The notes beneath the pieces were generated by a model. It was not told the DNA's origin, made no database searches, and saw only the letters and a program-made list of their open reading frames with translations. Positions 36,080 through 62,804 of a stretch of DNA of 64,000 nucleotides are shown here, piece after piece. The stretch covers positions 186,001 to 250,000 of the forward strand of contig JAFKHH010000015.1 in assembly GCA_017306865.1 (NCBI GenBank). Direction: 5' to 3'. Made by a program: the position numbers and the translations under genes. The number at the start of each line of letters is the position of its first letter. The first letter of the stretch is position 1. The DNA is from Filimonas sp. GTDB taxonomy: Bacteria > Bacteroidota > Bacteroidia > Chitinophagales > Chitinophagaceae.

Positions 36080-39000
36080 ATGGAAAAAAAATGCCTGCGA
36101 GGTAAAGGCATATCGCTGAAGCAGCGTATGCGCACTTTTGCACTGCTATTTATGTTACTGCAAATCTGCTTTCTCTCCAATGTGTTTGCACAAACTATCT
36201 CTGTAAACGGTGTTGTCAAAGACGGGAAAGGTTCTCCGGTTTCCGGCGTTACGGTTAACGTAAAAGGCACTGCTATTAATTCAATTACAGATATAGACGG
36301 AAAGTACAATGTGAAAGTACCAACCGCATCGTCTGTACTTGTTTTCACATTTGTTGGTTTTACAACAAAAGAGGAAACTGTAGACAGTAGAAAAACGATC
36401 AACGTAACCATGAGCGAATCTTCATCTGACCTGGATGAAGTGATCATCGTTGGTTATGGTGCATCTACCAAGAAAAAAGACCTGACCGGTGCTATTGGTA
36501 CAGTTAGCTCAAAACAGATCAACGAAAGACAGCCTGTAACGTTGTTCGATGCCTTACAAGGACAAGTGTCTGGTGTAATGGTAATGAATGACAATGGCGA
36601 TCCTGCGGGACAAGGTTCTATCCAGATCCGCGGCGCATCTACCATTAACTCCGGTAATGGCCCGCTGTATGTGATCGACGGTATTATGAGTGACAATGCC
36701 AACTACATTAACCCGAACGACATTGAGTCTATTGAAGTATTTAAAGACGCATCATCTGCTGCTATTTATGGCGCACGTGGTGCGAACGGCGTTATCCTGA
36801 TCACTACTAAAAAAGGTAAAGACGGACGTCCGTTGATCAATGCAACGTACACACACACGATCGGTCAGTTAGCACATAAACTGCGCACTACGAGTGCAGA
36901 TGAATTGCGTTTGTACCGTAAAATGCGTGGTGATGGTAATGCAGGTGCTAACGTAGACTCACTGAACCCATACCTGAACCAGGATAATGATTTCCAGGAC
37001 CTGATGTTCAGAACTGCGCACAAACAAGTGTTTACAGTAAGTGCAAGCGGTGGACAGAAAGGACTGACTTTCTATACAGGCGCGACTTATACAGATGACC
37101 GTTCTATTGTGATCAATAGCTGGATCAAAAGAATACAGGCTCGCGCAAACATAGAATACCAGGCATCTAAAAAATTGAAAATAGTAAACAACCTTTCTGT
37201 GTCTTACCAAACGGGTAACGATATTCCTGTGGCAACGGCATTGAAAGTGGTATTTGATAGAAACCCTTGGACTGCAATAACAAGGCCGGACGGTTCTTAT
37301 ACTGGTTATGTAGAATCTAAACGTAACCCTGTTGCACAAGCGTTATTCAGCAAATCTGAAAAGAACCTGTTCACTGCACAGTACAATACACGTTTAGAAT
37401 ACCTGATCTATAAAGACCTGCGTTTCACAACCAGCTTCAACATTAGCTGGAACAATAACAGAAGCATTGACTTCGTGCCTAGTTCATTAACATCTACTGG
37501 TACAGGCGATGCAACAGGTGCAAACGGCTTTACGCAGTCAGCGTATTGGGAATACCAGGCGTTCTTCAACTACAATAAAACGATCAAGGGTAAACATAAT
37601 TTCACTGGTTTATTGGGTTTCAGTGCAGATAAAAAACGTACGGATAACTTCAATATCAGCATGAACAACTTCCTTGATGAAAGCGTGTTCACTTCAAACG
37701 CTGCACAAACAATTAACCTGACTAAAACAGGTACAGATGCCAGCTCTGCTACAGATGCTTCTGTATTTGGCAGATTGGGTTATAACTACTCTGGTAAATA
37801 TATCTTAGAAGGTTCTTTCAGAACGGACGGTTCTTCCAAATTCGGTGCAAACAATAAATTCGGTACTTTCTATGCAGGATCAGCAGCATGGCGCTTTTCA
37901 CAGGAAACCTTCATGACATGGGCTAGTCCATATATTACCGATGGTAAATTACGTTTAAGCGTTGGACAAACAGGTAACGACCGTATTGATGATAACGCTT
38001 CCCGTACACTGATCAACTATGGTGGTGAATACTACAATGGTAGCAGTGTGGCAGCTCCAAACAGCAGGTTGGGTAACCCTAACATTAAGTGGGAAACAAC
38101 TACACAGAAAGACCTCGGTTTAGACCTTACGTTCAATAAAGGTAAGATCACTTTTACTGCTGATTACTATATGAAAACAACCAGCAACCTGCTGTATAAC
38201 CAAAAACTGGCAGGAGAAAGTGGTGTAACTGACGTATATGTAAACATCGGTACGTTGCAGACAAATGGTCTTGAACTGAACCTGACTGCTACTCCGGTAA
38301 CTACTAAGAATTTTCAATGGCAGGTAACTGGTAACGTTACTTTCCAAAGCTCTAAAATTAAAGAACTGGCAAACCATCAGTCATTCATTTCTGGTGACAA
38401 ATGGTTGATCCAGGAAGGTGGACGTTTAGGTGATTTCTATGTATTCCAGAATTTAGGTGTTTACCAATGGAATGAGTCAAACGCATATGATCCGGCTTCC
38501 GGCCGCAAGCTGGGTGTTGTATTGGGTGCAGATGGCAAACCAAACGGTTCATATACTTTAGACGGTAAACCATTTGCTGGTACACCACAGGCAAAATATA
38601 CCAATGGCCTGAAATTATTGGGTGGTGATACAGAATGGCTGGACCTGAACAATGATGGTGTGATAGATGACAAAGATCGCGTGATAGCAGGTAATGCCGT
38701 ACCAAAACAATTCTTCGGTTTCATCAATACTTTCCGCTATAAAAACTTCACTTTAAACTTCATGTTTAATGGTAACCTTGGCTACCAGATCTACAACGGT
38801 GTGAAGAACGCACAGAACGCAAACAGCTCTACTTATTCTCCGCCATCTTGGGATGCGATCCTGGGTTCATGGCAGAAACAAGGCGACATTGCTACATATC
38901 CTTACTTCCCTGCAAAAGATACGCGCTATGGTATCAGGAACGGTATCAACAGCCTGTACGTAGAAGATGGTTCTTTCATCAGGTTAACAAGTGCTAAACT

Positions 39001-39205
39001 GACTTACACATTTAGCGGCAAGTTTATCCAGCAGGTGAAAATGAAATCACTGGGTGTGTACATCTTCGGAAACAACCTGGGCACATGGACTAAATACTCA
39101 TGGTATGATCCTGAGTTCAGTTCTTCTGGCCTTAACATCGGCGCAGACAATGGTAAATATCCAAAGAGAAGAGAAATCGGTTTAGGTATCAATGCAAATT
39201 TCTAA
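36080..39205 (+). CDS. SusC/RagA family TonB-dependent outer-membrane transporter
   Basis: 1041 residues. N-terminal signal (LLFMLLQICFLSNVFAQ, about residues 22-38), a CarboxypepD_reg-like domain (about 40-120, VNGVVKDGKGSPVSGVTVNV), the SusC hallmark DEVIIVGYGASTKKKDLTGA at about 120-139, plug domain (LQGQVSGVMVMNDNGDPAGQ; IQIRGASTINSGNGPLYVID), then a 22-strand barrel ending in INANF with a terminal Phe. No STN domain, so no direct sigma/anti-sigma signalling is indicated. It imports oligosaccharides captured with SusD into the periplasm. First gene of the PUL. Confidence 0.97.
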   Translation: MEKKCLRGKGISLKQRMRTFALLFMLLQICFLSNVFAQTISVNGVVKDGKGSPVSGVTVNVKGTAINSITDIDGKYNVKVPTASSVLVFTFVGFTTKEETVDSRKTINVTMSESSSDLDEVIIVGYGASTKKKDLTGAIGTVSSKQINERQPVTLFDALQGQVSGVMVMNDNGDPAGQGSIQIRGASTINSGNGPLYVIDGIMSDNANYINPNDIESIEVFKDASSAAIYGARGANGVILITTKKGKDGRPLINATYTHTIGQLAHKLRTTSADELRLYRKMRGDGNAGANVDSLNPYLNQDNDFQDLMFRTAHKQVFTVSASGGQKGLTFYTGATYTDDRSIVINSWIKRIQARANIEYQASKKLKIVNNLSVSYQTGNDIPVATALKVVFDRNPWTAITRPDGSYTGYVESKRNPVAQALFSKSEKNLFTAQYNTRLEYLIYKDLRFTTSFNISWNNNRSIDFVPSSLTSTGTGDATGANGFTQSAYWEYQAFFNYNKTIKGKHNFTGLLGFSADKKRTDNFNISMNNFLDESVFTSNAAQTINLTKTGTDASSATDASVFGRLGYNYSGKYILEGSFRTDGSSKFGANNKFGTFYAGSAAWRFSQETFMTWASPYITDGKLRLSVGQTGNDRIDDNASRTLINYGGEYYNGSSVAAPNSRLGNPNIKWETTTQKDLGLDLTFNKGKITFTADYYMKTTSNLLYNQKLAGESGVTDVYVNIGTLQTNGLELNLTATPVTTKNFQWQVTGNVTFQSSKIKELANHQSFISGDKWLIQEGGRLGDFYVFQNLGVYQWNESNAYDPASGRKLGVVLGADGKPNGSYTLDGKPFAGTPQAKYTNGLKLLGGDTEWLDLNNDGVIDDKDRVIAGNAVPKQFFGFINTFRYKNFTLNFMFNGNLGYQIYNGVKNAQNANSSTYSPPSWDAILGSWQKQGDIATYPYFPAKDTRYGIRNGINSLYVEDGSFIRLTSAKLTYTFSGKFIQQVKMKSLGVYIFGNNLGTWTKYSWYDPEFSSSGLNIGADNGKYPKRREIGLGINANF

Positions 39206-39247
39206 GCGATACAAAACTGAAGTGTTAAAACATTAAACCAGGAAAAA

Positions 39248-40774
39248 GTGAAAAAATTAATCAACATAGCAATAGCTGCAGCATCAGTAGTGGCAATGGG
39301 AAGCTGTAAAAAATTCCTGAATCAGCCGCCGCTGTCACAGGGTGAAACTTCCAATTATTATAAAAGCGGCAAAGACATGAATGCCGCAATAGCAGGGGTT
39401 TATTCAGCATTGCAAACGCAAATGCTGGGTGATGGCACCAGCAAATACGGCGGCAACTTTAATTATTGGGGTGAAGGCCGTGCAGATAACTTTGAAAGAT
39501 CAGGTTATCCCAATACTACGATCACAGAACTTGCATTAAATGGATTGACTACCGGTAACAGTGCTACAGACTGGAGTGGTTTGTACCAGGTAATCAATCG
39601 CGCAAACTATTGTATCAAATATTTTCCACGCATTCCGGCGCTCGACAATACTGTTACACCAACTGTATTGGCAAATGCAATGGCGCAGGTATATGCTGTA
39701 CGCGCATTGTCTTATTTCTACATTGTAAGATTATGGGGCGACCCGGTTGTATGGACGGATCCTTATGAGGATATTAGCCAGCCGAGCGCACGCCCGAGAA
39801 CAGCGGCAGCAACAGTACTGGATACCGTTGTAATTGCTGATTTGCAAAAAGCGTATGGCCTCATTACAAAAAATGCTACACCTAACGTGTACAATGTAGG
39901 TGAAGCGGCTATTGCTGCCATGCTTGCAGATGCTTATATGTGGAAGAAAGATTATCCTAATGCTGTAACATGGATTGGTAATGTGTTCAAAGCAAAAGGG
40001 CCTACTGGTGCAGTGTACACAGGCACAAGCGGAGCAAACCTGGAGCCTATCTCTACCTGGAAAAACCTGTTTGTAGCACCTTATGCATCTGTTGAGAGCA
40101 TTTGGAGCATCAACTGGGACCAGGCGTATAATGGTTGTGCATGTTTGCCAATGGGTATAGCAAAAAGTAACTCACCAGTGAGCGTAGACTCTTTGTTTAA
40201 AGCTACATGGAGAGTAAATACCAAGATTGATCAGCGTCTTGTAAAATCAATCGATACTCTTGCAGGTAATAACCATGATAACATTGTACCTAAGTTTTAC
40301 AATATAGCAGGTAATGCAGTGCCAACAGGTACAGGCGCACCTGACGCACAACAGTACAATGTGTACCCGGTAATGTATCGCCTCGGTGATATCTACCTAT
40401 TGTATGCAGAGGCATTGAACAAACTGAGTGATCCGACAAATGCATTGAAATACCTGAACTATGTACGTGTACGTGCTGGTCTGCCTGCTTATTTAGCAAC
40501 TGACCCGGCTGTTACCGGTACTGCAAATCTTGAAAATGCAATATTGGATGAAAGGCATTTTGAACTGTTTGGAGAAGGAAAAAGATGGTTTGATCTGGTA
40601 AGAACAGATCACGTAAAACAAGTGCTCGACCCGATTTTGAAGATTAGGCAGGTTAGATTTGGTTCTCCTGCTACAGGCTTCGATCCGGGACCGAACAACG
40701 GTAAATATTTGTGGCCATTACACCGCGATGTATTGACTGCAAATAAAATAATCTCTCAAAACAAAGATTATTAA
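39248..40774 (+). CDS. SusD/RagB family outer-membrane glycan-binding lipoprotein
   Basis: 508 residues starting with GTG at 39248 (42 bp after susC), chosen because it begins the lipoprotein signal MKKLINIAIAAASVVAMGSC; lipidated Cys20. SusD features: FLNQPPLSQGETSNYYKSGK near the N-terminus, the TPR helices (AMAQVYAVRALSYFYIVRLW), and the C-terminal LDERHFELFGEGKRWFDLVR signature. It forms the lid of the SusC channel and binds the glycan on the cell surface. Coupled to susC and the FAS1-like gene as the PUL core operon. Confidence 0.97.
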   Translation: MKKLINIAIAAASVVAMGSCKKFLNQPPLSQGETSNYYKSGKDMNAAIAGVYSALQTQMLGDGTSKYGGNFNYWGEGRADNFERSGYPNTTITELALNGLTTGNSATDWSGLYQVINRANYCIKYFPRIPALDNTVTPTVLANAMAQVYAVRALSYFYIVRLWGDPVVWTDPYEDISQPSARPRTAAATVLDTVVIADLQKAYGLITKNATPNVYNVGEAAIAAMLADAYMWKKDYPNAVTWIGNVFKAKGPTGAVYTGTSGANLEPISTWKNLFVAPYASVESIWSINWDQAYNGCACLPMGIAKSNSPVSVDSLFKATWRVNTKIDQRLVKSIDTLAGNNHDNIVPKFYNIAGNAVPTGTGAPDAQQYNVYPVMYRLGDIYLLYAEALNKLSDPTNALKYLNYVRVRAGLPAYLATDPAVTGTANLENAILDERHFELFGEGKRWFDLVRTDHVKQVLDPILKIRQVRFGSPATGFDPGPNNGKYLWPLHRDVLTANKIISQNKDY

Positions 40775-40793: not shown

Positions 40794-41462
40794 ATGAAAA
40801 AGTTATCATTTATCATAGCTGCAGCCACATTTGCCATCACTGCTTCCGTAAGTCTTTCCAGTTGCTCCATCTTCGGGCTTGACTGGCAGAAAGATTATCA
40901 CAGGGTAGTAGACACAGTAGACGCACATGTGTACAAAAACGCGTGGGACTACCTGAAACAACGTAGTATAGAAAACAAAACGGATACAATTTTTAAAAGA
41001 ATGTATGACGGCATCATCTACAGTGGTATGGATACTGCAGAGTATATGAAGACAGACAGAACATTCATCTTCCTGCACAATGATGCGATTTACAGAAGCA
41101 AAGCAACAGACTGTTACTTTGGCGCTGTAAAAGATACATTGGGTAAAACATTAGGTACTACATGGACTACTTACAGAAAATCTGATGTAAAAGCGTACCT
41201 GCAATACCTGATAGTAGAAGGCCAGTATTCTCACTACAATCTGCCTATTACAAACATATCTGTACAAACAATCGGCCCTAAATCATTCTTCCCGCTTGCA
41301 CCAGATGCAAAAATGAAAATGATGGTGCTGAACGGATCTAACGGTAACACACAGGACGACCCGATCATGCTGAACGCACTGATCTACGTTCGTACCTCTG
41401 ATATTATGCCTACAAACGGTGTAATACATGTAATAGACAAATACCTGACCCCTCAGCAATAA
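40794..41462 (+). CDS. FAS1 (fasciclin)-like surface lipoprotein of the PUL
   Basis: 222 residues, 19 bp after susD, with lipobox LSSC (Cys24). The mature protein reads like a divergent single FAS1 domain: AWDYLKQRSI (helix alpha1), MKTDRTFIFLHNDAIYR where FAS1 proteins have FxPxNxAF, and the terminal NGVIHVIDKYLTP that matches the FAS1 signature (NGxIHVID). SusD-adjacent FAS1-type proteins are probably surface glycan-binding proteins; that role is inferred. A terminator follows, closing a three-gene uptake operon. Confidence 0.8.
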   Translation: MKKLSFIIAAATFAITASVSLSSCSIFGLDWQKDYHRVVDTVDAHVYKNAWDYLKQRSIENKTDTIFKRMYDGIIYSGMDTAEYMKTDRTFIFLHNDAIYRSKATDCYFGAVKDTLGKTLGTTWTTYRKSDVKAYLQYLIVEGQYSHYNLPITNISVQTIGPKSFFPLAPDAKMKMMVLNGSNGNTQDDPIMLNALIYVRTSDIMPTNGVIHVIDKYLTPQQ

Positions 41463-42022: not shown

Positions 42023-44482
42023 ATGAATATGAAAAAGCATGTTTTAGCGATTGGCTTGCTGCTGGCTGCTACGTTTTCCCAGGCGCAGCAGAGTACCCGG
42101 CTCAATAACAACTGGGACTTCTTAAAACAGGATCTGGGTGGTATATGGGAGGCCGTAAGGCCGGTGGGGAAAGGCAACCCGGAAAGTGTGCCTTTGTGGC
42201 AATCGGTAACGCTGCCCCATTGTGTAAATGCAGAAGATGCGGTTGATCCCGATGTAAATTACTACCAGGGACCGGCATGGTACAAAACACAGTTAGCAAT
42301 CAATAATCCATACGCCAACGGAAGAACGTTATTGCATTTTGAAGGCGCAGGACAGAAAACGGATGTATATGTGTACACCACAAAAGTGGGTTCACATGTA
42401 GGCGGCTATGATGAGTGGACGGTAGACATAACAGATGCCGTAGCGGCATTTACTAAAACAGATGTTTATCAAAAACAGTTCAAGGGGAACATACCTGTTT
42501 CCATACGCACAGATAATTCCCGTGACCTGGAAATGATCCCTTCCAATTTGTCAGACTTCAATGTGTATGGCGGTATCTATCGTTATTTAAACCTTATATA
42601 TACACCTGCATTATCCATTGATAAAATATTTGCAACACCTGTAACAGATGCAGCAGGCAAGCAAGGAACACTAAACGTAAAAGCACGTTTGTATAATCCG
42701 GCTAAAGCCAGCAATGCAGAAGCAACAGTTAAATTGCTTGACCCTAAAGGGAATGTTGTACAGCAAAAGCAGGCAACCTTGTCTTCTTTGAACGGTGATG
42801 TAACCCTGGCAGATTTTACAGTGAAAACGCCACAGTTATGGTCACCTGAAACACCAGCTTTATACACCGTACAGGTAAGTGTAACAAACAATGGCGTTAC
42901 CTGCACACAGACAACAAAAACAGCTTTCCGCAATTTTGAATTTGTAACGAAAGGGCCGTTCATGCTTAACGGCAAAAGATTGTTGTTGCGTGGTACACAC
43001 AGGCATGAAGATTTTGCTGGCGTAGCTGCTGCACTCACAGAAGATATGATCCGCAATGAGATGGTATTGATGAAAGAGATGGGCGTAAACTTCATCCGTC
43101 TTGGGCATTACCAGAACTCCCGCATCGCACTGAATCTTTGCGATAGTCTTGGTATTGTTGCATGGGAAGAAATACCCTGGTGCCGCGGCGGTCTGGGTGG
43201 TGATGTATATAAAGAGCAGGCAAGACGCATGCTTACCAATATGATTGAGCAACACTACAATCACCCGTCTGTGATCATCTGGGGATTGGGTAATGAAAAC
43301 GACTGGCCCGGCGACTTCCCGGAGTTTGATAAAGAGAAGATCCGTGCATTTATGAAAGAGTTGAACACCTTGTCTCATAAACTCGATCCTTCTCGCAAAA
43401 CTGCTATCCGTAGATGCGATTTCTGTAAAGATATTGTAGACGTATATTCTCCTTCTATCTGGGCTGGCTGGTACCGCGGTATCTATACCGAATACAAACA
43501 AACCTCTAAAGACGAGTTTGATAAAGTAGAGCATTTTCTACATGTAGAGTGGGGTGGAGACAGCCACGCCGGTCGTAACTCTGAAAATCCGGATAAAGCA
43601 TTAGTACAAATAAAAACAGGTGGAGGTACAGATGAGCGTGCCGGTGATGCGTCTTTATATGGCGGCGCAGCACGTGTATCTAAAGACGGTGACTGGAGTG
43701 AGTCCTATATCTGTAATTTATTTGACTGGCATCTTAAAGAACAGGAAACAATGCCTTGGTTGACTGGTGCAGCCGCGTGGATCTTCAAAGATTTCTCTAC
43801 ACCCGTACGTCCGGACAATCCTGTTCCATACATGAACCAGAAAGGCGTAGTGGAACGCGATCTTACAAAGAAAGAAGCCTATTACGTATTTCAGTCATAC
43901 TGGACAGCAAAACCAATGGCACACATCTACGGGCATAACTGGCCGGTAAGATGGGGTGATGCAGGTGAGGAGAAAATGGTGAAAGTATATTCTAATTGTG
44001 ATGAAGCAGAACTGTTCCTCAATGGTAAAAGCTTTGGTGTAAAAAAACGCAACAGCCAGGACTTTCCTGCCGCTGGCCTGCGTTGGAATCTCGTGTTCAA
44101 TGCGGGTAACAACACGGTAAAAGTAGTTGCGAAAAAAGGTAAAGAAACTGTAACAGACGAAATCAGTTTTGCATACCAAACAGAGAAATGGGGCAAGCCT
44201 TCCAGGCTTGTATTTGAGAAAATAAAAGAAGAAAACGGTATTGCAACTGTGCAGGTAAAACTGCTGGACGATAAAAATGTGTTGTGTCTTGACGCTGTTA
44301 ACTGGGTTCGTTTTGGCCTTGCAGGTGATGGCAAACTCATCGACAACCAGGGTACATCCAGCGGATCAAGATTGGTACAGGTATATAATGGCCGCGCCAT
44401 CATCCGCATTAAAACAAACAACGGAAAAAGTGTAGCAAGCGTAAAAAGTGATGGGGTAGGAACAGCGTTTCTCAATCTATAA
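42023..44482 (+). CDS. Glycoside hydrolase family 2 (beta-galactosidase/glucuronidase-like)
   Basis: 819 residues with signal peptide (MKKHVLAIGLLLAATFSQAQ). GH2 order: sugar-binding jelly-roll (NNNWDFLKQDL, HFEGAGQKTDVYV), immunoglobulin-like domain, TIM barrel with acid/base N424-E425 (WGLGNEND) and nucleophile Glu509 (LHVEWGGDSH), then DUF4982-like and Ig-like C-terminal domains (VYSNCDEAELFLNGKSFGV). It removes terminal beta-linked galactose, glucuronate or similar; specificity is undetermined. Probably periplasmic. Confidence 0.93.
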   Translation: MNMKKHVLAIGLLLAATFSQAQQSTRLNNNWDFLKQDLGGIWEAVRPVGKGNPESVPLWQSVTLPHCVNAEDAVDPDVNYYQGPAWYKTQLAINNPYANGRTLLHFEGAGQKTDVYVYTTKVGSHVGGYDEWTVDITDAVAAFTKTDVYQKQFKGNIPVSIRTDNSRDLEMIPSNLSDFNVYGGIYRYLNLIYTPALSIDKIFATPVTDAAGKQGTLNVKARLYNPAKASNAEATVKLLDPKGNVVQQKQATLSSLNGDVTLADFTVKTPQLWSPETPALYTVQVSVTNNGVTCTQTTKTAFRNFEFVTKGPFMLNGKRLLLRGTHRHEDFAGVAAALTEDMIRNEMVLMKEMGVNFIRLGHYQNSRIALNLCDSLGIVAWEEIPWCRGGLGGDVYKEQARRMLTNMIEQHYNHPSVIIWGLGNENDWPGDFPEFDKEKIRAFMKELNTLSHKLDPSRKTAIRRCDFCKDIVDVYSPSIWAGWYRGIYTEYKQTSKDEFDKVEHFLHVEWGGDSHAGRNSENPDKALVQIKTGGGTDERAGDASLYGGAARVSKDGDWSESYICNLFDWHLKEQETMPWLTGAAAWIFKDFSTPVRPDNPVPYMNQKGVVERDLTKKEAYYVFQSYWTAKPMAHIYGHNWPVRWGDAGEEKMVKVYSNCDEAELFLNGKSFGVKKRNSQDFPAAGLRWNLVFNAGNNTVKVVAKKGKETVTDEISFAYQTEKWGKPSRLVFEKIKEENGIATVQVKLLDDKNVLCLDAVNWVRFGLAGDGKLIDNQGTSSGSRLVQVYNGRAIIRIKTNNGKSVASVKSDGVGTAFLNL

Positions 44483-49644: not shown

Positions 49645-49778
49645 TTGTTTGATTGTTACATGGTTAAATTGTTTTTTAAAACATTGCGATCCTTGTGAAA
49701 ACGCTGTGATTTTTGTGGTTTTATTTCTTGGTGAATTCCTTGTGTCTTAGTGCCTCCGTGGCAGGAAAAATAACAAAC
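49645..49778. repeat. Repeat words (A, D-like) before the lyase gene
   Basis: Family A (ttgtttgattgttacatggt) directly follows the GH31 stop; D-like words (ccttgtgtcttagtgcctcc) run to the lyase start. No promoter recognised. Confidence 0.5.
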
Positions 49779-50939: not shown

Positions 50940-51063
50940 GTGAGTGGTGAATTGTCAATCGTGAGTCGTGAATCGATAATCGTGAATACGCCTTTGTGTT
51001 CTCTGCGTTTCCTCTGTGTCCTTTGCGATACAGAAATCTCAAATCTCAAATTTCAAATCTCAA
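50940..51063. repeat. Repeat words (C, E, D, B) before the GH29 gene
   Basis: gtgagtggtgaattgtcaat, gaatcgataatcgtgaatac, ctctgcgtttcctctgtgtc and ctcaaatctcaaatttcaaa run in series up to the start codon at 51064. Confidence 0.55.
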
Positions 51064-52944: not shown

Positions 52945-53213
52945 ATATTATGTACGATGTTAGATGTACGGTGTAAAGAGAGTATGATACAGTGAGTGGT
53001 GAGTTGTCAGTTGTGAATGAGAAAACAATTTAACCATTGAACAATTAAACAATTTGGCTTCGCCTCGGTTCGTGTCCTCACGAACCGGAACATAACTGTC
53101 TCGTGAAGACACGAGCCAGGGCACGAAAAGTAGAAGGTAGTCAATTGTGAATGGGAAAACAATTTAACCATTCAACACTTAAACAATTTAAACAATTTGG
53201 CAAATTGAATATT
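52945..53213. repeat. Repeat block H, C, A, M, A
   Basis: Family H (52950-52967), C (gtgagtggtgagttgtcagt, 52994-53013), A (aatttaaccattgaacaatt), M hairpin GGTTCGTG/CACGAACC (53062-53082), a second M-like hairpin (gtctcgtgaagacacgagcc), then A again (ttaaccattcaacacttaaa) running to the GH88 start. Confidence 0.65.
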
Positions 53214-54474: not shown

Positions 54475-55848
54475 ATGAGAAAATTAAGTACACTTTTGAT
54501 TGCAACAGCATTGTTTGCACACGTACAGGTAAACGCAAAAGATTATACCGTTCACTCCGCCGCAGAATTGAGCCAATTAAGCCTCCAGGCAGGTGATAAA
54601 GTTATTTTAGCACAAGGAGACTGGAAAGATCAACAGTTAGTCTTTAAAGGAAAAGGAAAGGAAAACAAACCGATTATCTTAACTACCGATCAACCGGGAA
54701 AATTACAACTGACAGGTAATTCGCATCTGCTGATAGATGGTGAATATCTTGAAGTGAACGGCGTAACTTTTACAGATGGCTATTCTCTTAAAGGAGACGT
54801 TGTCGTATTCTCCGATGCATCGACCCATTGTCGCTTTACCAATTCTGCTATTATCAACTACAATCACCCGGATAAAAAAGTAGATTATAAATGGCTTTCC
54901 CTGCATGGCAATAACAACAGGGTAGACCATTGCTTCATGCAAGGGAAAACACACCAGGGTACAACCCTCGTAGTGTGGTTGTCCAATAAGGCAAATTATC
55001 ACCGCATAGACCATAACTATTTTGGCGAGCGCCCGGACCTCGGTGTGAATGGTGGCGAGACTATCCGTATAGGCACGAGCGATTGGTCTATGCACGACTC
55101 TTACACAACTGTAGAAGAAAACATATTTTATCATTGCAATGGTGAAATGGAAGTAGTCTCAAATAAAAGCTGCAACAATACCATTGCAAACAACCTGTTT
55201 TATGAATGTGTAGGCACGCTTACCTTACGTCATGGTAACAGCGTATCCGTATATGGTAATTATTTTATTGGCAATGGTGTGAAAGAAACAGGTGGCATCC
55301 GTATTATCGGCGAAAATCATCGCGTGTATAACAACTACCTGCAAGGGCTTACCGGCAAAGGGCTGAAAGCAGCCATCTCCATGATGAATGCTATGACCAA
55401 TCCACCACTGAATGGTTACTGGCAGGTAAAAAATCCTATTGTAGTAAATAATACCATTGTTGATTGCAAACAAGGATTCGATATTGGCGCCGGTAAAAAT
55501 GATACACGCACTGTTGTACCTGTTAATGGCGTTATAATGAATAATCTTGTGCAACATACTCCAGCGATACAGCTAACAGACCAGCCGGAGAAATTTACAA
55601 TCAGCAATAATATTATTTCAAACGATGCCGCAGCGGATGGTTTTACAGAACAGAAAAACGTATTAAAAAAACAAGATGGTTTGTACGTGCCGGATAATAG
55701 TGTTGTAAATACAGCAAAAGGCGATTATAGTTTTACGAATAATAAAAACATGGGCGCACCTGCCACAAATGCCGCACAACAAAAACTCTTAAAAGGTGAA
55801 GGTGTCGGCCCGGCGTGGATGAGCTTTGGTAAGGAATTGAAATTGTAA
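54475..55848 (+). CDS. Polysaccharide lyase family 6 (alginate lyase / chondroitinase B fold)
   Basis: 457 residues with signal peptide (MRKLSTLLIATALFAHVQVNA). Right-handed parallel beta-helix with PL6 motifs: NGVTFTDGY, LVVWLSNKANYHRIDHNYFG, NGGETIRIGTS, EVVSNKSC (catalytic Lys) and LTLRHGNSVSVYGNYF (catalytic Arg). Cleaves alginate, dermatan sulfate or related uronate-containing chains with Ca-assisted beta-elimination. In this setting the natural substrate may not be alginate. Located directly after a terminator, so expression may be partly separate from GH88. Confidence 0.93.
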   Translation: MRKLSTLLIATALFAHVQVNAKDYTVHSAAELSQLSLQAGDKVILAQGDWKDQQLVFKGKGKENKPIILTTDQPGKLQLTGNSHLLIDGEYLEVNGVTFTDGYSLKGDVVVFSDASTHCRFTNSAIINYNHPDKKVDYKWLSLHGNNNRVDHCFMQGKTHQGTTLVVWLSNKANYHRIDHNYFGERPDLGVNGGETIRIGTSDWSMHDSYTTVEENIFYHCNGEMEVVSNKSCNNTIANNLFYECVGTLTLRHGNSVSVYGNYFIGNGVKETGGIRIIGENHRVYNNYLQGLTGKGLKAAISMMNAMTNPPLNGYWQVKNPIVVNNTIVDCKQGFDIGAGKNDTRTVVPVNGVIMNNLVQHTPAIQLTDQPEKFTISNNIISNDAAADGFTEQKNVLKKQDGLYVPDNSVVNTAKGDYSFTNNKNMGAPATNAAQQKLLKGEGVGPAWMSFGKELKL

Positions 55849-56255
55849 GTGGTGGAATCGTGAATCGTGAGACGATAATCGTGAATAGGCTATTCTGTGG
55901 TTTCCGTGTCTCTGTGGCAAATTTTATGACGGGACGATGAAGTGTGCGACGCAAGGGACGATGCTATGAAAAACTATTGCCCGGACAGTAATATCGTGAA
56001 TCGTGAGACGATAATCGTGAATGGACTATTCTGTGTTTCCGTGTCTCTGTGGCAAAAGACCTTCCTATCTCAAATCTCAAATTTCAAATCTCAAATACCT
56101 TTATATACCATATATACATCGTAAACCGTATATCCCGCAAAGAAATGCCAATCTGTTTGAATAAATGGATAATCCCGCGGGCTTATACATCGTGAATAAT
56201 TGGTTAGTTGCAATAGATTTAAACCATTGATTTGCCATATAATACTCACCTCAAC
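55849..56255. repeat. 407-bp gap with a 136-bp direct duplication and a J element
   Basis: No gene is seen. A segment of E words plus ctgtg-tttccgtgtctctg occurs at 55857-55921 and again at 55993-56056 (period 136). Between them lies a J element, inverted (atgaagtgtgcgacgcaagg, 55938-55957). Family B (caaatctcaaatttcaaatc) follows at about 56075. The last 130 bp form the GH29 leader. Confidence 0.75.
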
Positions 56256-57680
56256 ATGAAAAAGATTTTAGTTACATTATTTGCACTGGCGATAGCCACG
56301 TCCTCACTTTTTGCACAGACGGACCAGGATAAAAAAATGGAATGGTGGCGCGAAGCCCGCTTTGGTATGTTCATTCACTGGGGCGTGTATTCTGTGCCCG
56401 CAGGTGTATATAAGGGGCATGAAATGGCGCGTGGTGGCGGTGAGTGGATCATGAACCGCTCTAAAATTCCTGTGGCGGAGTACCAGCAATATGCAAAACA
56501 ATTCAACCCGATCAAATACAATGCGGAAGCTTGGGTAAAACTGGCAAAAGACGCGGGTATGAAATACATAGTGATCACGGCGAAGCACCATGATGGTTTT
56601 GCCATGTTCAAATCAAACGCGAGCAAGTGGAACATTGCAGACGCAACACCTTATGGCAAAGATGTATTGAAAGCATTGGCTGACGCTTGCCGTAAGTATA
56701 AAATGAAATTAGGCTTTTATTATTCGCAGGCACAGGATTGGAACAATCCCGGGGGATCTGCTGCACGTAAAGTTGCTTCAGAGGGATGGCCCAATCCTGA
56801 TTCTGCGAAAATAGATGCTTACACAGAAGCGCATACAGGGCATTGGGACCCGGCGCAAACAACGGCTACCATGGCTGAGTACATAGACAAAGTAGCGGTG
56901 CCGCAGGTAAAAGAATTGCTGACAAACTATGGCGATGTAGCTGTATTGTGGTGGGATACGCCTACAAACATGACAGATGAGTTTGCTACAAAACTACAAG
57001 AGCAACTGAAACTGCAACCTAACATCATTACCAACGACAGGCTGAAACGTCCAAACTTTCCGGGCGATTATAAAACACCTGAGCAGAAAATCCCTAACCT
57101 GAAAGAACTGGATGGCCGCGACTGGGAAACCTGTATGACCATGAATGGTACATGGGGCTTTAAAAGCTACGACCACAAATGGAAAAGTGTAGAATTGTTG
57201 TTACGTAACTTAATTGATATCGCATCTAAAGGTGGTAACTATTTGCTGAATGTAGGCCCGACTGCAGAAGGTGAAATACCTGGTGAAAGCATAGAAGCAT
57301 TGAAACAAATGGGTGCATGGCTGAAAGTGAACGGCGAAGCAATCTACGGCACAAAAGCAAGCCCGCTGGATACACTTGGCTGGGGCCGTTGTACACGTAA
57401 AGAAAACGGTAATAACACTACGTTATACCTCTCCGTGTTTAACTGGCCTGCAAGTGGTAAACTAACTGTTACCGGTTTGAATAGTGATGTGCTGTCTGCT
57501 AAATTATTAGCCAACGGTTCTACGCTTAAAACAACAAAAAGCGGCAACGATCTTGTAATAGACGTACCGGCAACTGCTCCTGATAAAATTGCATCCGTTA
57601 TCAAGCTGGAAGTAAAAGGCAAGCTGGGTAAAGATGTAAAAAGCAAAGGAAAAGGACAGGAGAAGGCGTTGGATGAGTGA
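56256..57680 (+). CDS. Glycoside hydrolase family 29 alpha-L-fucosidase, shorter form
   Basis: 474 residues from ATG 56256 (MKKILVTLFALAIATSSLFAQ signal). Motifs: EARFGMFIHWGVYSVPAGVY, TAKHHDGFAMFKSN, KLGFYYSQAQDWNNPGG, nucleophile Asp in AVLWWDTPTNM, and GGNYLLNVGPTAEGEIP; one C-terminal beta domain. Ends in a Lys-rich tail (KGKLGKDVKSKGKGQEKALD). Likely periplasmic removal of alpha-L-fucose from imported oligosaccharides. Confidence 0.95.
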   Translation: MKKILVTLFALAIATSSLFAQTDQDKKMEWWREARFGMFIHWGVYSVPAGVYKGHEMARGGGEWIMNRSKIPVAEYQQYAKQFNPIKYNAEAWVKLAKDAGMKYIVITAKHHDGFAMFKSNASKWNIADATPYGKDVLKALADACRKYKMKLGFYYSQAQDWNNPGGSAARKVASEGWPNPDSAKIDAYTEAHTGHWDPAQTTATMAEYIDKVAVPQVKELLTNYGDVAVLWWDTPTNMTDEFATKLQEQLKLQPNIITNDRLKRPNFPGDYKTPEQKIPNLKELDGRDWETCMTMNGTWGFKSYDHKWKSVELLLRNLIDIASKGGNYLLNVGPTAEGEIPGESIEALKQMGAWLKVNGEAIYGTKASPLDTLGWGRCTRKENGNNTTLYLSVFNWPASGKLTVTGLNSDVLSAKLLANGSTLKTTKSGNDLVIDVPATAPDKIASVIKLEVKGKLGKDVKSKGKGQEKALDE

Positions 57681-57855
57681 TAACATTTAATTGTTGAATG
57701 GTTATATTGTTTAATTGTTGGGAACGTCTCGAACGCCCTGGTTTGTGTTTTCACGAACCAAGGCGTAACAACAATCTAACCATTCAACAATGCAACAATT
57801 AACCCATAGCTTGTTATAGAGGATCAATAACTGCTCAAAACTCAATTTGAACAGT
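57681..57855. repeat. Nested A-M-A hairpin
   Basis: Outer A arms (taattgttgaatggttatat from 57688; aacaatctaaccattcaaca from 57771) enclose a family-M hairpin at 57734-57765 (CGCCCTGGTTTGTG / CACGAACCAAGGCG). The left arm starts within 10 bp of the GH29 stop. Confidence 0.75.
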
Positions 57856-59391
57856 ATGCAAAAAAGTATTTCGTTTTTATGTTTCCTGCTACTGGCTGTG
57901 CTTACAAAAGCAGCAGTACATATAGATGTTACAAAATTTGGCGCAGTAGGTGACGGCAAAGTAATGAACACACAAGCCATACAGACTGCCATAGATAGTT
58001 GCAGCGCGCAAGGCGGCGGTAAAGTGGTATTCCCCGCAGGTACGTGGCTAAGCGGTACGCTGCTGTTGAAAACAGGCGTTACACTGTACCTGGATGAAAA
58101 AGCTACGCTGCTGGGCAGCACAGATATCGCAGACTATAAAGTAGTAGATGGTTTTAAGGATGGCTTAGGCCAGGCAATGGGTTATTGCTTTATCGGTGCG
58201 GTAGATGTACAGAATGTAGGACTGGAAGGCCTGGGCACAATAGACGGGCAAGGCAAGCTGGTACGCGAGTCCGGAGGAAAAGACAGGAGGCCTTTTCTTA
58301 TTCGCTTTGTAAGATGTAACAACGTCTCTGTAAAAGAAGTACGCCTGACCGGGCCTACTGCATGGACGCTGCATCTTTTCCGTTGTAAAAATATTATTGC
58401 AGACAAAGTAGTGATACGCAGCCGCGGCTTAGGTAATAACGACGGTATTGATATTGATTGTTGCGAAGATGTAGTGATCAGGAATTGTGATATAGATAGT
58501 GGTGATGATGCGATCTGTTTTAAAACCACCAGCCCGTTCCCTTGTAAAAATGTGCTGATAGAGAACATACACATCTTCACAAGAGAAGGCGCTATAAAAT
58601 TTGGTACAGAATCCGCAGGCAACTTTGAAAACATCAAAGTAAAAAATATTGAGATCATGTTTGCACGCGAAGGCGGCATCAAATTGTTCTCTGTAGACGG
58701 CTCTAAAATGAAAAACATAGAGATCAGTGATGTGGTCATGCACAAAGCACATCTGCCGATCATTGTTCGCTTAGGCGCAAGAATGAAAACCTTCCGTCCG
58801 GGCGATCCGAAACTGGAAGTTGGTTCTATCAGTAATGTAAAGATCAGGAATGTAAAAGTGTATGATGGCGACTGGATCGGTATATTAATGAGTGGTATTC
58901 CCGGCCATAATATTGATGGCCTTACCATGGAAAATATAGACATCAACGTAACAGGCAAAGGCACGCTGGATGATGCAAAACTAAAACCCGAAGAGAAAAT
59001 AGATGCCTATCCGGAGATCTATATTTTTGGCAGAAGGTTACCTGCCTACGGCATGTACCTGCGCCATGCGCAGAACATTACTATGAAAAATGTAAATCTG
59101 CATATAGATTCTACAGATGCACGACCAGCGATCATTGCCACAGATATAGCCAATATTACACTGACAGACTGGAAACTATCAACGAACAACTCCCAGGAGC
59201 CATTGATCAACCTGGACGCAGCTAAAAATATTGCATTAACGAACATAACACCTTCTGCAAAACCAGCTACCTTCTTATCTGTAACAGGAAAAGAAAGTAA
59301 AAAGATTACTGTAAAACAAAGCAAGTGGGGAGAGAAAGCAGCAGTAAAATTAGCTGATGAAGTAGAGAAAGGGACTGTAGTGTTTAATTGA
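57856..59391 (+). CDS. Glycoside hydrolase family 28 (polygalacturonase/rhamnogalacturonase-like)
   Basis: 511 residues from ATG 57856 (signal MQKSISFLCFLLLAVLTKA); a TTG nine bases upstream is in frame but unnecessary. Parallel beta-helix with pectate-lyase-superfamily start (DVTKFGAVGDGKVMNTQAIQ). Active-site motifs: NNDGIDIDCCEDV (NxD) and DSGDDAICFK (DD), then REGAIKFGTESAGNFENI at the place of GHG/RIK motifs, the variant seen in many bacterial exo-acting GH28. Hydrolyses alpha-linked galacturonic acid, probably from oligosaccharide ends. The last codons overlap a family-A repeat. Confidence 0.93.
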   Translation: MQKSISFLCFLLLAVLTKAAVHIDVTKFGAVGDGKVMNTQAIQTAIDSCSAQGGGKVVFPAGTWLSGTLLLKTGVTLYLDEKATLLGSTDIADYKVVDGFKDGLGQAMGYCFIGAVDVQNVGLEGLGTIDGQGKLVRESGGKDRRPFLIRFVRCNNVSVKEVRLTGPTAWTLHLFRCKNIIADKVVIRSRGLGNNDGIDIDCCEDVVIRNCDIDSGDDAICFKTTSPFPCKNVLIENIHIFTREGAIKFGTESAGNFENIKVKNIEIMFAREGGIKLFSVDGSKMKNIEISDVVMHKAHLPIIVRLGARMKTFRPGDPKLEVGSISNVKIRNVKVYDGDWIGILMSGIPGHNIDGLTMENIDINVTGKGTLDDAKLKPEEKIDAYPEIYIFGRRLPAYGMYLRHAQNITMKNVNLHIDSTDARPAIIATDIANITLTDWKLSTNNSQEPLINLDAAKNIALTNITPSAKPATFLSVTGKESKKITVKQSKWGEKAAVKLADEVEKGTVVFN

Positions 59392-59488
59392 TAAATTGTT
59401 GAATGGTTAACTATAAAACCTGTCAGGTTTATAAAAACAATTCAGCCATTCAACAATACAACCATCTAACTATATAACAATTGAATTC
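59392..59488. repeat. Nested A-I-A hairpin
   Basis: A arms (taaattgttgaatggttaac; caattcagccattcaacaat) enclose a small I palindrome AAACCTGTCAGGTTT (59416-59430). It occupies the whole gap. Confidence 0.7.
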
Positions 59489-60625
59489 ATGAAGAAAGTA
59501 TATAAACCATTATTCGTTCTATTCGCTGCAATGCAGGTAAATGCAAACGTGTTTGCACAATCCGGTGATTTGGAAAACTGGCCCAAAGGCACTTCTCCGC
59601 AAGAAGTAGGTAAAAAAGTAGCAGAGCATTTTAATGCATCTCCACACCAGAACTTTGGAAGGCCCACACCACCTACACGCATGACCTATCCTGAAACATG
59701 CGCATGGTATGGTGCATTACAATTTGCAAAAGAAAGCAATGATAAAGCATTGGCTGAAAAACTGAAAAATAGATTTGAGCCTTTGTTTACAACAGAAGCA
59801 GGTATGATCCCACCTGCAGAACACGTAGACTATACAGTGTTCGGCTCTGTGCCATTGGAACTGTATATACAGACAAAAGATAAACGTTACCTGGATATGG
59901 GATTGGCCTTTGCTGACAAGCAATGGGGAGAACCAACCGGTAAATATGTAAAACCGGAAGAAGCGAAAACATATGCAGACCGTGGCCTTACATGGCAGAC
60001 GCGTATGTGGATAGACGATATGTTTATGATCACGACCGTGCAAATGCAGGCTTACCGCGCAACGGGTGATAAGAAATACATGGAACGCACTGCAAAAGAA
60101 ATGACGGTGTACCTGGATTCGTTACAACGCCCGAATGGTTTGTTTTATCACGCGCCAGATGTACCTTTCTTCTGGGGACGCGGCGATGGCTGGATGGCAG
60201 TTGGTATGACGGATGTATTACGTGCGTTGCCGAAAGATAACCAGTATCGCGAGCGCATTATGAAAGGATATAAGCTAATGATGGCATCCCTCTTGCAACA
60301 CCAGGCTGCAAGCGGCATGTGGAACCAACTGATAGATGTGCCTGAAGCATGGCCGGAGACATCTGGTTCTGCTATGTTTACCTACGCACTCATTACTGGT
60401 GTAAAGAATGGCTGGCTGGATAAGAAAACATATGGCCCGGCCGCACGCAAAGCATGGCTGGCATTGATCACCTATATTGATGATAATAATGATGTGAAAG
60501 AAGTATGTGAGGGTACGAATAAGAAAAATGACCTGCAATATTACCTCAATCGCAAACGCAATGTAGGAGATATGCACGGACAAGCGCCGGTAATGTGGTG
60601 CGCGACAGCGTTGCTGAGAAAATAA
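59489..60625 (+). CDS. Glycoside hydrolase family 105 unsaturated rhamnogalacturonyl hydrolase
   Basis: 378 residues with signal peptide (MKKVYKPLFVLFAAMQVNANVFAQ). GH105 (alpha/alpha)6 barrel: TYPETCAWYGALQFA, QTRMWIDDMFMITTVQMQAY (catalytic Asp), GLFYHAPDVPFFWGRGDGW, SGMWNQLIDVPEAWPETSGS and the C-terminal DMHGQAPVMWCATALLRK. Removes unsaturated galacturonate (or glucuronate) from oligosaccharides produced by lyases; complements GH88 in this locus. Confidence 0.95.
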   Translation: MKKVYKPLFVLFAAMQVNANVFAQSGDLENWPKGTSPQEVGKKVAEHFNASPHQNFGRPTPPTRMTYPETCAWYGALQFAKESNDKALAEKLKNRFEPLFTTEAGMIPPAEHVDYTVFGSVPLELYIQTKDKRYLDMGLAFADKQWGEPTGKYVKPEEAKTYADRGLTWQTRMWIDDMFMITTVQMQAYRATGDKKYMERTAKEMTVYLDSLQRPNGLFYHAPDVPFFWGRGDGWMAVGMTDVLRALPKDNQYRERIMKGYKLMMASLLQHQAASGMWNQLIDVPEAWPETSGSAMFTYALITGVKNGWLDKKTYGPAARKAWLALITYIDDNNDVKEVCEGTNKKNDLQYYLNRKRNVGDMHGQAPVMWCATALLRK

Positions 60626-60857
60626 GAGTTAAGTACAAAGGACTAAGTACGAAGTACAAAATTGGGAAGCCAAAAGTTGTGTTGCCGGCTGTAGTATTAC
60701 TATTAGGCTTTACTTGCGTCGCACACTTCATCGGTTGGTATTCTATGGAACATTTTATAAAAGGTTACAAACCCTGGCAGGTCTTAAAGACCTGTCAGGT
60801 TTATAAAAACTTTGGGTTCCTTGGCATCGTTGCGTCTTGATGGCAAAAAACTTGTGT
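60626..60857. repeat. J element and family-I palindrome before the esterase gene
   Basis: J element at about 60675-60745 (gttgccggctgtagtattac, acttgcgtcgcacacttcat). Family-I palindrome 60769-60802 (AACCCTGGCAGGTCT / AGACCTGTCAGGTTT, one wobble-type G/T position). Paired words taagtacaaaggactaagta start the gap. Confidence 0.75.
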
Positions 60858-62804
60858 ATGAAAAATCTACTGTTTCTTTCTTTGCTGCTGACCTGCTTAT
60901 CCTCTTATGCACAGCAGTATGCTGTTACAGAAGAGAAAAGTGGTTCATGGCATGGGTTTACAAAAACTTCTTTCAAGATAGATGGGGTAGATGCATGGTA
61001 TGCATCGCCTGCAAAACCATTGCCTGGCAATCCGTGGATCTGGCGGGCTTACTTTCCTGACTGGCATGTAGCCATGGACAGCATTTTATTGCAACGCGGC
61101 TTTTACGTTGCCTATATTGAGGCAAAAGATCTGTATGGCGCACCTAAAGCAATGATGCTTTGGGATAAGTTGTATGACTATCTCGTAAACCAAAAACAGT
61201 TTGCTGCAAAAGTTGCGTTGGAAGGTGTAAGCCGTGGCGGTTTATATGTATATGGTTGGGCAAAGCGCAACCCGGAAAAAGTAAGCTGCATTTTTGCAGA
61301 AGCGCCCGTATGTGATTTCACCAGTTGGCCAGGCAAGTTAAAGAATGGCAGTGCTGCCAGTGATTGGAAAAAACTACTACTTGCCTATAATTTTACTGAG
61401 CAGCAGGCACAGCAATACAATGATCAGCCAAAAGATAATCTTGATGCACTGGCAGCATTCAAAGTTCCGATACTGCATGTAATACGTACAGATGACAAAT
61501 ATGTACCTTATGCAGATAATACAAAAGTCCTGGTTGCCAACTACATTGAAAAAGGAGGCCCCGCCACAGTTATTCCTATGACAAGAGGAGAGCAGGATAT
61601 GGATGGGCATCATTTTACCATTGAGCAACCTGCGGCGCTGGCTGATTGGGTATATGCAAACGCTTACCCGGTAAAGACGCTTTTACGGGCAGATGAATAT
61701 ATAAGGCCTTATGGCAACCTCAACAACTTTCTACATCGCATACAAACAGAAAAGAAAGCCACCATTGCTTTCCTCGGCGGCTCTATTACTAATATGAAAG
61801 GCTGGCGCGATAAAGTAGGCCAGTATCTTACAGAGTTATATCCAGAGGTTTCTTTCACTTTCATTAATGCCGGTATCCCTTCACTTGGCAGTTTGCCTCA
61901 TGCCTTTCGTGTACAACATGATGTACTGGATGAAGGACGCGTAGACCTTATGTTTATAGAGTCTGCGGTAAATGATCATGGCAATGGTACAACAGAACTG
62001 CAGCAACGAAAAGCCCTCGAAGGAATTATCCGCCATGCGCGCAAAGTAAATCCCGCTATGGATATGGTGATGATGGCGTTTGTAGATGAAGATAAAATAG
62101 CTGACTACAACAATGGCCGTGTACCATTGGAAATAAAAGTACACGACGATCTTGCTAACTATTACAAGCTGCCATTCATTAACCTGGCAGAAGAAGTAAG
62201 CCGTAAGATCGCTGCAAACGAATTTAACTGGCAATACGATTTTAAGAATCTGCATCCATCTCCATTCGGGCAAGAAATTTATTTTGGAACGATTAAACGT
62301 TTACTGCAAAAGCAACTCATAGGTATGCCGGCTTCCCGTCTGCAAACTGTAACGTTACCTGTTGCCTTGCAAAAACTCAATTATGAAAAAGGCCGTTATG
62401 TAGCGGTCACCCAGGTACAAAAAGAACAAGGCTTTGCCATTGTGCCAGACTGGCGTCCTGCGGATTCAGCGCATACACGTCCGGGCTTTGTAAAAGTACC
62501 GGTGCTGGAAGGTAAGAACGCAGGAGATAGTTTTGAGTTTACGTTTACCGGCACTACTGTTGGGCTGGCTACGCTCGCAGGGCCAGACGCAGGCATCATA
62601 TCTTACAGTATAGACGGCAAACCGGCGCAGCAGGTAGATCTTTACACAAAGTGGAGCAAAAATTTACACTTGCCCTGGTATGTATTGTTAGGAGACGATT
62701 TAAGCAATAAAAAGCATACAGTAAAAGTATCGATAACAGATACCCACAATACTTTATCAAAAGGGAACGCCTGCCGCATTGTTTATTTTCTTGTAAACGA
62801 ATAA
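60858..62804 (+). CDS. Two-domain esterase: alpha/beta hydrolase fused to SGNH hydrolase
   Basis: 648 residues from ATG 60858 (MKNLLFLSLLLTCLSSYAQ signal). N-terminal alpha/beta hydrolase (about 20-285): nucleophile Ser in LEGVSRGGLYV, Asp in RTDDKYVPY, His in DGHHFT. Next an SGNH domain (about 295-500): block I FLGGSITNMKGW, block III ESAVNDHGNG, block V NLHPSPFG; the Asp normally three residues before the His is Lys here, so it may use a Ser-His dyad. A C-terminal beta domain (about 510-648) ends it. Likely removes acetyl or methyl esters from PUL oligosaccharides. Confidence 0.88.
   Translation: MKNLLFLSLLLTCLSSYAQQYAVTEEKSGSWHGFTKTSFKIDGVDAWYASPAKPLPGNPWIWRAYFPDWHVAMDSILLQRGFYVAYIEAKDLYGAPKAMMLWDKLYDYLVNQKQFAAKVALEGVSRGGLYVYGWAKRNPEKVSCIFAEAPVCDFTSWPGKLKNGSAASDWKKLLLAYNFTEQQAQQYNDQPKDNLDALAAFKVPILHVIRTDDKYVPYADNTKVLVANYIEKGGPATVIPMTRGEQDMDGHHFTIEQPAALADWVYANAYPVKTLLRADEYIRPYGNLNNFLHRIQTEKKATIAFLGGSITNMKGWRDKVGQYLTELYPEVSFTFINAGIPSLGSLPHAFRVQHDVLDEGRVDLMFIESAVNDHGNGTTELQQRKALEGIIRHARKVNPAMDMVMMAFVDEDKIADYNNGRVPLEIKVHDDLANYYKLPFINLAEEVSRKIAANEFNWQYDFKNLHPSPFGQEIYFGTIKRLLQKQLIGMPASRLQTVTLPVALQKLNYEKGRYVAVTQVQKEQGFAIVPDWRPADSAHTRPGFVKVPVLEGKNAGDSFEFTFTGTTVGLATLAGPDAGIISYSIDGKPAQQVDLYTKWSKNLHLPWYVLLGDDLSNKKHTVKVSITDTHNTLSKGNACRIVYFLVNE

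Follow-up and report, generated by a model that had tools for sequence, protein, structure and literature searches.

A conserved polysaccharide utilization locus of Filimonas sp. with a predicted fucose-rich acidic heteropolymer as its target

Here, we analyzed a stretch of 64,000 nucleotides from the genome of Filimonas sp. (6.15 Mb in 42 contigs), which comprises bases 186001–250000 of contig C3 and is referred to as the window. At positions 36080–62804 it carries 14 intact, closely spaced open reading frames (ORFs), all on the plus strand, which form a real polysaccharide utilization locus (PUL), ordinary in kind: a susC gene adjoins a susD gene, accompanied by ten co-directional glycoside hydrolase (GH) or lyase ORFs and an esterase (Table 1). 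Judging from the encoded proteins, this PUL may act on an O-acetylated, acidic, fucose-rich heteropolymer bearing alpha-D-galactose on fucose together with 4-linked glucuronate, most likely a colanic-acid-type bacterial exopolysaccharide, a reading to which we give a probability of about 0.4. That the polymer holds alpha-L-fucose, alpha-galactose and a uronate is fairly well supported; its exact identity we infer, as we do the activities of all cluster proteins and the order of the steps.

Predicted activities and L-fucose genes

Pfam matches above the cut-offs assigned the 14 ORFs to SusC, SusD, Fasciclin, GH2, GH95, GH31, PF05426, GH29 (two), PF07470 (GH88/105; two), PL6 (Chondroitinas_B), GH28 and a protein combining Peptidase_S9-type and SGNH domains. 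These assignments confirm every family named in a preliminary description of this DNA, and PL1, PL9, PL11, GH78, GH106, GH43, PL7 and PL17, which it had listed as missing, indeed gave no Pfam match in the 14 ORFs, to which the search for GH106 was limited.

The GH31 protein matches the PDB entry 4xpo with 1210 bits, compared with 118 bits for YicI. This entry is PsGal31A (Pedsa_3617), a GH31 alpha-galactosidase that was captured with fucose in its +1 subsite and for which the residues W486, Y274, R418, E366 and Y432 are named (PMC9491548). All five are kept in the window protein, which shares 72% identity with PsGal31A across 515 aligned residues; we assign it to the PsGal31A type, with alpha-galactosidase as its predicted activity. 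At E ≤ 1e-200, one GH31 of this kind per genome was found in 23/23 genomes searched. The 2015 report on PsGal31A is said to have remarked on fucosidase genes nearby and to have spoken of a novel sugar degradation system.

The best PDB matches of the GH2 protein are named beta-glucuronidases, and it carries the NxK carboxylate motif of the beta-glucuronidases of GH2 in the form N-Q-K; it passes no NCBIfam beta-glucuronidase cut-off (best 306 vs. 950). The GH88 protein is close to a structure of its own family, 3wiw. For the PDB entries 9rzy (matched by both GH29 proteins), 9rzx, 9s0x and 9s00, no paper naming them was found in the open-access literature.

The third gene after susCD encodes a protein with a marginal Fasciclin match (24.3 bits vs. 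a cut-off of 22). Its AlphaFold2 model (pLDDT 86.4) matches best the FAS1 domain of human TGFBIp (7asg; VIA Z 17.2, rmsd 2.0, 139 residues aligned), and the FAS1 assignment, weak by sequence, is firm by predicted structure. Cys24 is invariant in 30 aligned sequences, which is consistent with a lipoprotein. We propose that it is a surface glycan-binding protein, with both surface location and binding being predicted.

Genes for the use of L-fucose were found in relatives of the cluster. For 23 clusters, the analysis was extended by 20 kb downstream (14.9 kb in one case) and for 17 of these also by 20 kb upstream; four of the 23 have L-fucose genes (fucP-type and/or fucose dehydrogenase) in or beside the cluster. 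Two of them, L030 and L045, carry genes for an AraC-type regulator, a major facilitator superfamily (MFS) transporter, a UxaA-family dehydratase and a fucose-dehydrogenase-type short-chain dehydrogenase/reductase (SDR) between FAS1 and GH95. In L067, a divergent operon encodes FucP, LutA/B/C-like proteins, an FAH-family hydrolase and an L-fucose dehydrogenase, and L012 shows the same gene set, the L-fucose dehydrogenase excepted, in the stretch read. The L-fucose dehydrogenases of L067 and L030 pass the NF052481 cut-off of 300 (409.6 and 409 bits), and FucP of L067 reaches 407.7 bits against a TIGR00885 cut-off of 280.4; the FAH-family hydrolase misses its NCBIfam cut-off (388.5 vs. 500). The glucuronate gene uxuA, which we likewise count in favour of the main reading, was found in the extended flanks of 4/23 relatives; three of these four belong to Niastella and Longitalea, which are related genera.

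In Filimonas sp. itself, an MFS gene lies directly upstream of the PUL in divergent orientation (33986–35242, minus strand), at a position that holds a FucP-type transporter in L012 and L067. As a candidate fucose permease it was rejected, since it matches neither the FucP-like transporter of the relatives nor the ORFs of the extended flanks. The fucose genes were therefore sought elsewhere on the contig and found about 115 kb past the cluster: C3:373391–382060 holds homologues of fucP (70%), the dehydratase (70%), the SDR (65%), the FAH-family hydrolase (67%) and the fucose dehydrogenase (74%), together with a GH29 gene.

A possible mechanism can be outlined as follows. SusC, SusD and the FAS1 lipoprotein would capture and import chains, esterases would remove acyl (O-acetyl) groups, and the PF05426 and PL6 lyases would cleave at 4-linked uronates, here glucuronate. 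The GH88 enzyme (and GH105) would clear unsaturated uronate and GH2 saturated beta-glucuronate, while GH31 would release exposed alpha-galactose from fucose and the GH29 and GH95 enzymes would free L-fucose for the L-fucose dehydrogenase pathway of the cell. As a whole, the set could serve as a side-chain stripper for chains like [Pyr-Gal-(1->4)]-GlcA-(1->3)-Gal-alpha-(1->3)-Fuc. Colanic acid is similar to the exopolysaccharide of Pseudomonas 1.15. The polymer of this freshwater bacterium is O-acetylated and shows the linkages of such chains, including GlcA-(1->3)-alpha-Gal-(1->3)-alpha-Fuc (PMC6801904).

Compared with the preliminary description, which had proposed a fucose-rich, acidic and esterified heteropolymer, the general type of target is strengthened by the PsGal31A-type GH31, the beta-glucuronidase-type GH2 and the L-fucose genes of the four relatives, and the choice of one polymer stays provisional. 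Among the candidates listed there, a colanic-acid-like exopolysaccharide fits best in our view, whereas an algal fucan, if sulfated, is disfavoured. Shared gene order with a PUL known to act on another substrate would speak against the proposal; none was encountered in the searches made, which did not include the PUL database.

Table 1 Features of the PUL and its downstream border, in window coordinates, with supporting matches
Feature	Position	Strand	Evidence
SusC-type TonB-dependent transporter	36080..39205	+	TIGR04056 803 bits vs. cut-off 368; Pfam Plug and beta-barrel
SusD-type glycan-binding lipoprotein (predicted)	39248..40774	+	PF07980 111 bits
FAS1-domain protein, third gene after SusCD	40794..41462	+	PF02469 24.3 bits; conserved lipobox-type Cys
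GH2, beta-glucuronidase type	42023..44482	+	PDB 6d7j/6dxu 1206 bits (best); NxK motif, residues 605-607
GH95, putative alpha-L-fucosidase or alpha-L-galactosidase	44682..47234	+	PF22124 594 bits; PDB 2rdy 731 bits
GH31, PsGal31A-type alpha-galactosidase (predicted)	47497..49644	+	PDB 4xpo 1210 bits
PF05426 uronate lyase (predicted)	49713..50939	+	Pfam 293 bits; PDB 3nfv 216 bits, 8bdq 136 bits
GH29 (a), putative alpha-L-fucosidase	51016..52944	+	PF01120 284 bits; PDB 9rzy 285 bits
GH88, unsaturated glucuronyl hydrolase type	53151..54413	+	PF07470 50 bits; PDB 3wiw 375 bits
PL6 lyase, single domain	54475..55848	+	PF14592 319 bits; PDB 7o7a 492 bits
GH29 (b), putative alpha-L-fucosidase	56232..57680	+	PF01120 310 bits; PDB 9rzy 323 bits
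GH28 beta-helix hydrolase (accessory in soil relatives)	57847..59391	+	PF00295 81 bits
GH105-type unsaturated uronyl hydrolase	59489..60625	+	PF07470 201 bits; PDB 3k11 119 bits
Two-domain esterase (alpha/beta hydrolase and SGNH)	60837..62804	+	PF00326 24.9 bits; PF13472 53.3 bits
Start of 928-residue MG2-domain protein, runs past window end	62811..64000	+	PF01835 33.9 bits

Conservation of the cluster and variation of its PL6 lyase

Named bacterial genomes were scanned with the GH31 protein, the best 80 of 126 relatives were kept, and the 14 proteins were compared with these 80 loci by tblastn; 62 of the loci were at least 22 kb long and are treated as full-length. At least four of six core families (GH2, GH95, PF05426, GH29a, GH88 and GH29b) occur in 33/62 full-length loci, while the remaining 29 hold three or fewer and 19 of these none. 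The arrangement is more than chance, since gene order is identical in 30 of the 33 relatives chosen for at least four core families; the exceptions are two Proteiniphilum metagenome-assembled genomes (MAGs) and one Bacteroidetes MAG (L060, L061, L064). The 30 hosts with the same order belong to the Chitinophagaceae and Pedobacter, plus Botryobacter. The enzyme set, described earlier as unusual, is so in comparison with textbook PULs but recurs widely in these relatives.

Within the 33 relatives, GH95 and PF05426 are always present, followed by GH29a and GH88 (30 each), GH29b (28), GH2 (26), SusD (23), FAS1 (22) and a PL6 of either type (21). SusC, GH28, the esterase, GH105 and partly PL6 often lie outside the 10-kb flank, and the counts for these are low bounds: at least 16 for SusC, at least 7 each for GH28 and the esterase and at least 3 for GH105. 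In the 23 extended relatives, homologues of GH105 were found in 14, of the two-domain esterase in 12 and of the window GH28 in five.

The nearest characterised PL6 that we found is Pedsa0632, a PL6 subfamily 1 alginate lyase with 57% identity to the window PL6. We identify PDB entry 7o7a as Pedsa0632 because the matching gene of Pedobacter (Pseudopedobacter) saltans encodes the primer-given cloned N-terminus and adjoins a second PL6, as expected of Pedsa0631/0632. Unlike the window PL6, Pedsa0632 is thus encoded beside another PL6, taken to be Pedsa0631. The window protein keeps the aligned Lys and Arg of AlyGC, as read by eye from the alignment, which we take to be the catalytic residues of PL6; its PDB matches include 5gkq, an R241A mutant entry. 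Activity on alginate is a candidate function; Pedsa0632 itself is an endo poly-MG/poly-G alginate lyase (PMC4954714). Pedsa3628, a poly-MG alginate lyase (PMC4954714), was rejected as the closest PL6, given 32–36% identity compared with 57% for Pedsa0632.

In a PL6 tree of 35 rows, in which several long branches make the topology unsure, the cluster PL6 proteins fall into well-separated sets. Nine of them, from Chitinophagaceae and including one from Mucilaginibacter, form one clade with support of 100/100, whereas the best tree requires four changes for the other 15 (PUL_A), to which that of the window belongs. A single PL6 lineage for the cluster is thus unsupported by the best tree, although the starred branches still allow one origin. 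The pairing of the window PL6 with Pedsa0632 (89/87) has no strong support. Within the family of the window organism, a PL6 at E ≤ 1e-50 occurs in 22 of 147 genomes (its own included), and one genome besides its own has a PL6 at least 50% identical to that of the window. The near-constant GH95, GH31, PF05426, GH29 and GH88 on the one hand and the changing PL6 on the other suggest that the side-chain chemistry may be fixed while one cut site differs.

Separately, the clusters of two relatives were seen to encode beta-helix proteins that end in a C-terminal PDZ domain, a combination unusual in an enzyme (L113:10170–12554 and L139:2757–5096, minus strand). A second PF05426 lyase of the window (6038–7294, minus strand; 289 bits) lies away from the PUL and is 37% identical to the PUL copy; the genome has five PF05426 matches.

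Two known types of cluster come closest. The PsGal31A cluster of P. saltans resembles that of the window in its GH31 protein and in GH29, GH28 and PL6 homologues within the same stretch, and differs in having two SusCD pairs and other PL6 types (32–38% identical to the window PL6). In gut-type Bacteroidales (Bacteroides cellulosilyticus, B. oleiciplenus and Proteiniphilum MAGs), a GH31 with 67–69% identity likewise has GH28 nearby, in the Bacteroides form in most loci listed. Unlike the window, the Bacteroides locus L080 carries GH97, GH36, DUF362 and a hybrid two-component regulator, while the Proteiniphilum form has PF05426, PL6, GH29 and GH95 in a different order. The Bacteroides relatives L080, L065 and L075, with the same GH31 and GH28, represent a second PUL type.

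It is possible, though rather doubtful in our estimation, that the conserved arrangement represents an unassigned class of PULs that lets Chitinophagaceae and Sphingobacteriaceae feed on fucose-rich polymers of the colanic-acid family in the capsules and biofilm slime of other bacteria. Its lyase slot would then be exchangeable, following the uronate in the polymer of the prey, and the FAS1 lipoprotein would represent a novel type of surface glycan-binding protein. In listings of the open-access literature, no substrate assignment for this class was found, and among the papers listed in a search for a colanic-acid PUL, one, a review, mentions 'colanic acid'. If right, the main reading would tell what many soil-type Bacteroidota consume by means of this cluster. 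It would also provide enzymes that strip fucose-rich bacterial slime, of use in combating biofilms and in the production of fucosylated oligosaccharides, and would account for the 'novel sugar degradation system' reportedly suspected when PsGal31A was discovered.

Alternative target polymers

Several observations weigh against a colanic-acid-type target. Colanic-type polymers are not known to contain galacturonate, to which the presence of GH28 and GH105 points, and GH28 adjoins the PsGal31A-type GH31 in the Bacteroides form as well. The P. saltans stretch read around PsGal31A shows no homologue of GH2, GH95, GH88 or PF05426, and it includes Pedsa3628; together with Pedsa0632 as the closest characterised PL6, such alginate-active lyases near the GH31 elsewhere argue against a simple colanic reading, or else the PL6 fold was recruited. 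Within the flank, 12/33 relatives have no PL6 at all. Neither an obvious endo-enzyme for a Glc-Fuc backbone nor a GH3 was seen in the window. L-fucose genes were not seen in the stretches read for 19/23 relatives (beyond 10 kb upstream in 17/23), and those of the own genome are not adjacent to the PUL. Finally, the GH95 enzyme might act on L-galactose instead of fucose. A Thr/His difference at the GH95 -1 subsite, proposed as discriminating between the two sugars (PMC4491172), was dropped as not diagnostic, because XacAfc95 and Blon_2355 carry Thr yet act as fucosidases (PMC10063614).

An unlikely alternative, if the strongest one, is a fucose- and glucuronate-containing polymer of Mucoromycota or of non-sulfated algal or cyanobacterial origin. 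Mucoran-type walls contain fucose, galactose, mannose and glucuronate, and their composition and that of desmid mucilage overlap with the enzymes of the cluster; the uxuA gene near the cluster in four of the extended relatives would agree with this as well. However, no mannosidase family was found in the 14 ORFs. A sulfated algal fucan is disfavoured, because no sulfatase signature was found in the stretches scanned: Pfam gave no sulfatase match for the 14 ORFs, and a strict signature, which is less sensitive than a profile, gave no match in 482 ORF translations of the extended flanks, in 1371 of the 80 loci or in the 14 PUL proteins. Linked sulfatases, the mark of fucoidan PULs, were thus not found in these stretches. 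A sulfatase profile matches at least 16 other places in the own genome; among the matches listed, the one closest to any PUL GH31 lies at a distance of about 31 kb.

Plant root mucilage of the cereal type, which is rich in galactose and fucose with some glucuronate and is eaten in the rhizosphere, is an improbable target. The host genera of the cluster are largely soil-dwelling, which would suit it. The mucilage of maize nodal roots matches in its sugars (39–42% galactose, 22–30% fucose and 3–5% glucuronate as the only uronic acid detected; PMC7752898), and the same paper cites another mucilage study with 11.3% glucuronate and 1% galacturonate. It fits less well because about 11–14% mannose and 8–11% arabinose are also present (PMC7752898), whereas no family dedicated to these two sugars was seen among the 14 ORFs, and because so small a share of glucuronate would hardly seem to call for two uronate lyases. 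The excerpt of a paper on the maize mucilage metagenome (PMC6157868) does not mention GH95 and has nothing on the cluster.

About as improbable, in our assessment, is a galacturonate-bearing target, either a fucosylated pectic polymer or an exopolysaccharide like Fucogel, which consists of galacturonic acid, L-fucose and D-galactose (PMC4392319) and would also account for GH28 and GH105. The frequent GH105 homologues speak for it, and the recurrence of GH28 beside GH31 in the Bacteroides form led us to raise our estimate for it and to lower that for a colanic-acid-type polymer from 0.42 to 0.40. Galacturonate as a core is nevertheless disfavoured by comparison of the loci, because GH28 homologues occur in only five of the extended relatives. 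As for pectin in particular, neither a pectin lyase nor a pectin methylesterase family is represented in the 14 ORFs, and the same holds for the rhamnosidases GH78 or GH106 that mark PULs for RG-I/RG-II. GH78 (PF17389) has no match in the own genome either; 20/24 genomes do have matches, but as read from their places all of them are more than 60 kb from the PUL GH31 (the nearest, a weak one, at 67 kb). For GH43, the nearest of the profile matches listed is about 29 kb from a PUL GH31.

Very improbable is alginate or another plain polyuronate with the fucosidases as passengers. It would agree with the alginate lyase Pedsa0632 as the nearest relative of the PL6, with the activity of Pedsa3628 near PsGal31A on alginate, and with PF05426 lyases of known activity, whose substrates are alginate or glucuronan. 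On the other side, GH95, GH29a and GH2 are more constant among the relatives than PL6, and we know of no task on alginate for fucosidases and an alpha-galactosidase. The argument from constancy spares some polyuronates, since PF05426 is as constant as GH95.

Cluster extent and neighbouring genes

The 14 ORFs lie within the limits given in the preliminary description, but the cluster is probably longer. Beyond the window end (stretch L091), the plus strand encodes the MG2-domain protein, a 569-residue protein and a third GH29, and the other strand a GH88 and then a DUF4955-like protein. Among the best eight matches listed per query, homologues of the third GH29 (58–71% identical, at least five matches), the downstream GH88 (61–70%, at least three) and the DUF4955-like protein (62–65%, at least eight) flank the clusters of relatives. 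Because of these homologues, the cluster is predicted to extend probably to about base 258741 of the contig (window-equivalent 72741). For the MG2-domain protein, a search of the 23 extended relatives gave a single homologue (43%) at E ≤ 1e-20. The 569-residue protein (L091:11755–13464, window-equivalent 65754–67463) has no Pfam match and resembles GH67-type alpha-glucuronidases by eye only.

Other genes of the relatives, which we count in favour of the colanic-acid-type reading, include GH3 beside the cluster in 3/23 extended relatives, and those for GH27 and SASA acetyl-esterase-like proteins in two relatives each. AraC homologues were found in the flanks of 12/23 relatives and none in the window or L091, where a query with the hybrid regulator gave no matches other than the kinases at 22978–28375, which lack a Pfam AraC domain. 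These kinases are part of a chemosensory-like block on the minus strand (20794–28375), in which CheB, CheR and two hybrid sensor kinases are encoded in a row, adjoining a methylmalonyl-CoA mutase gene.

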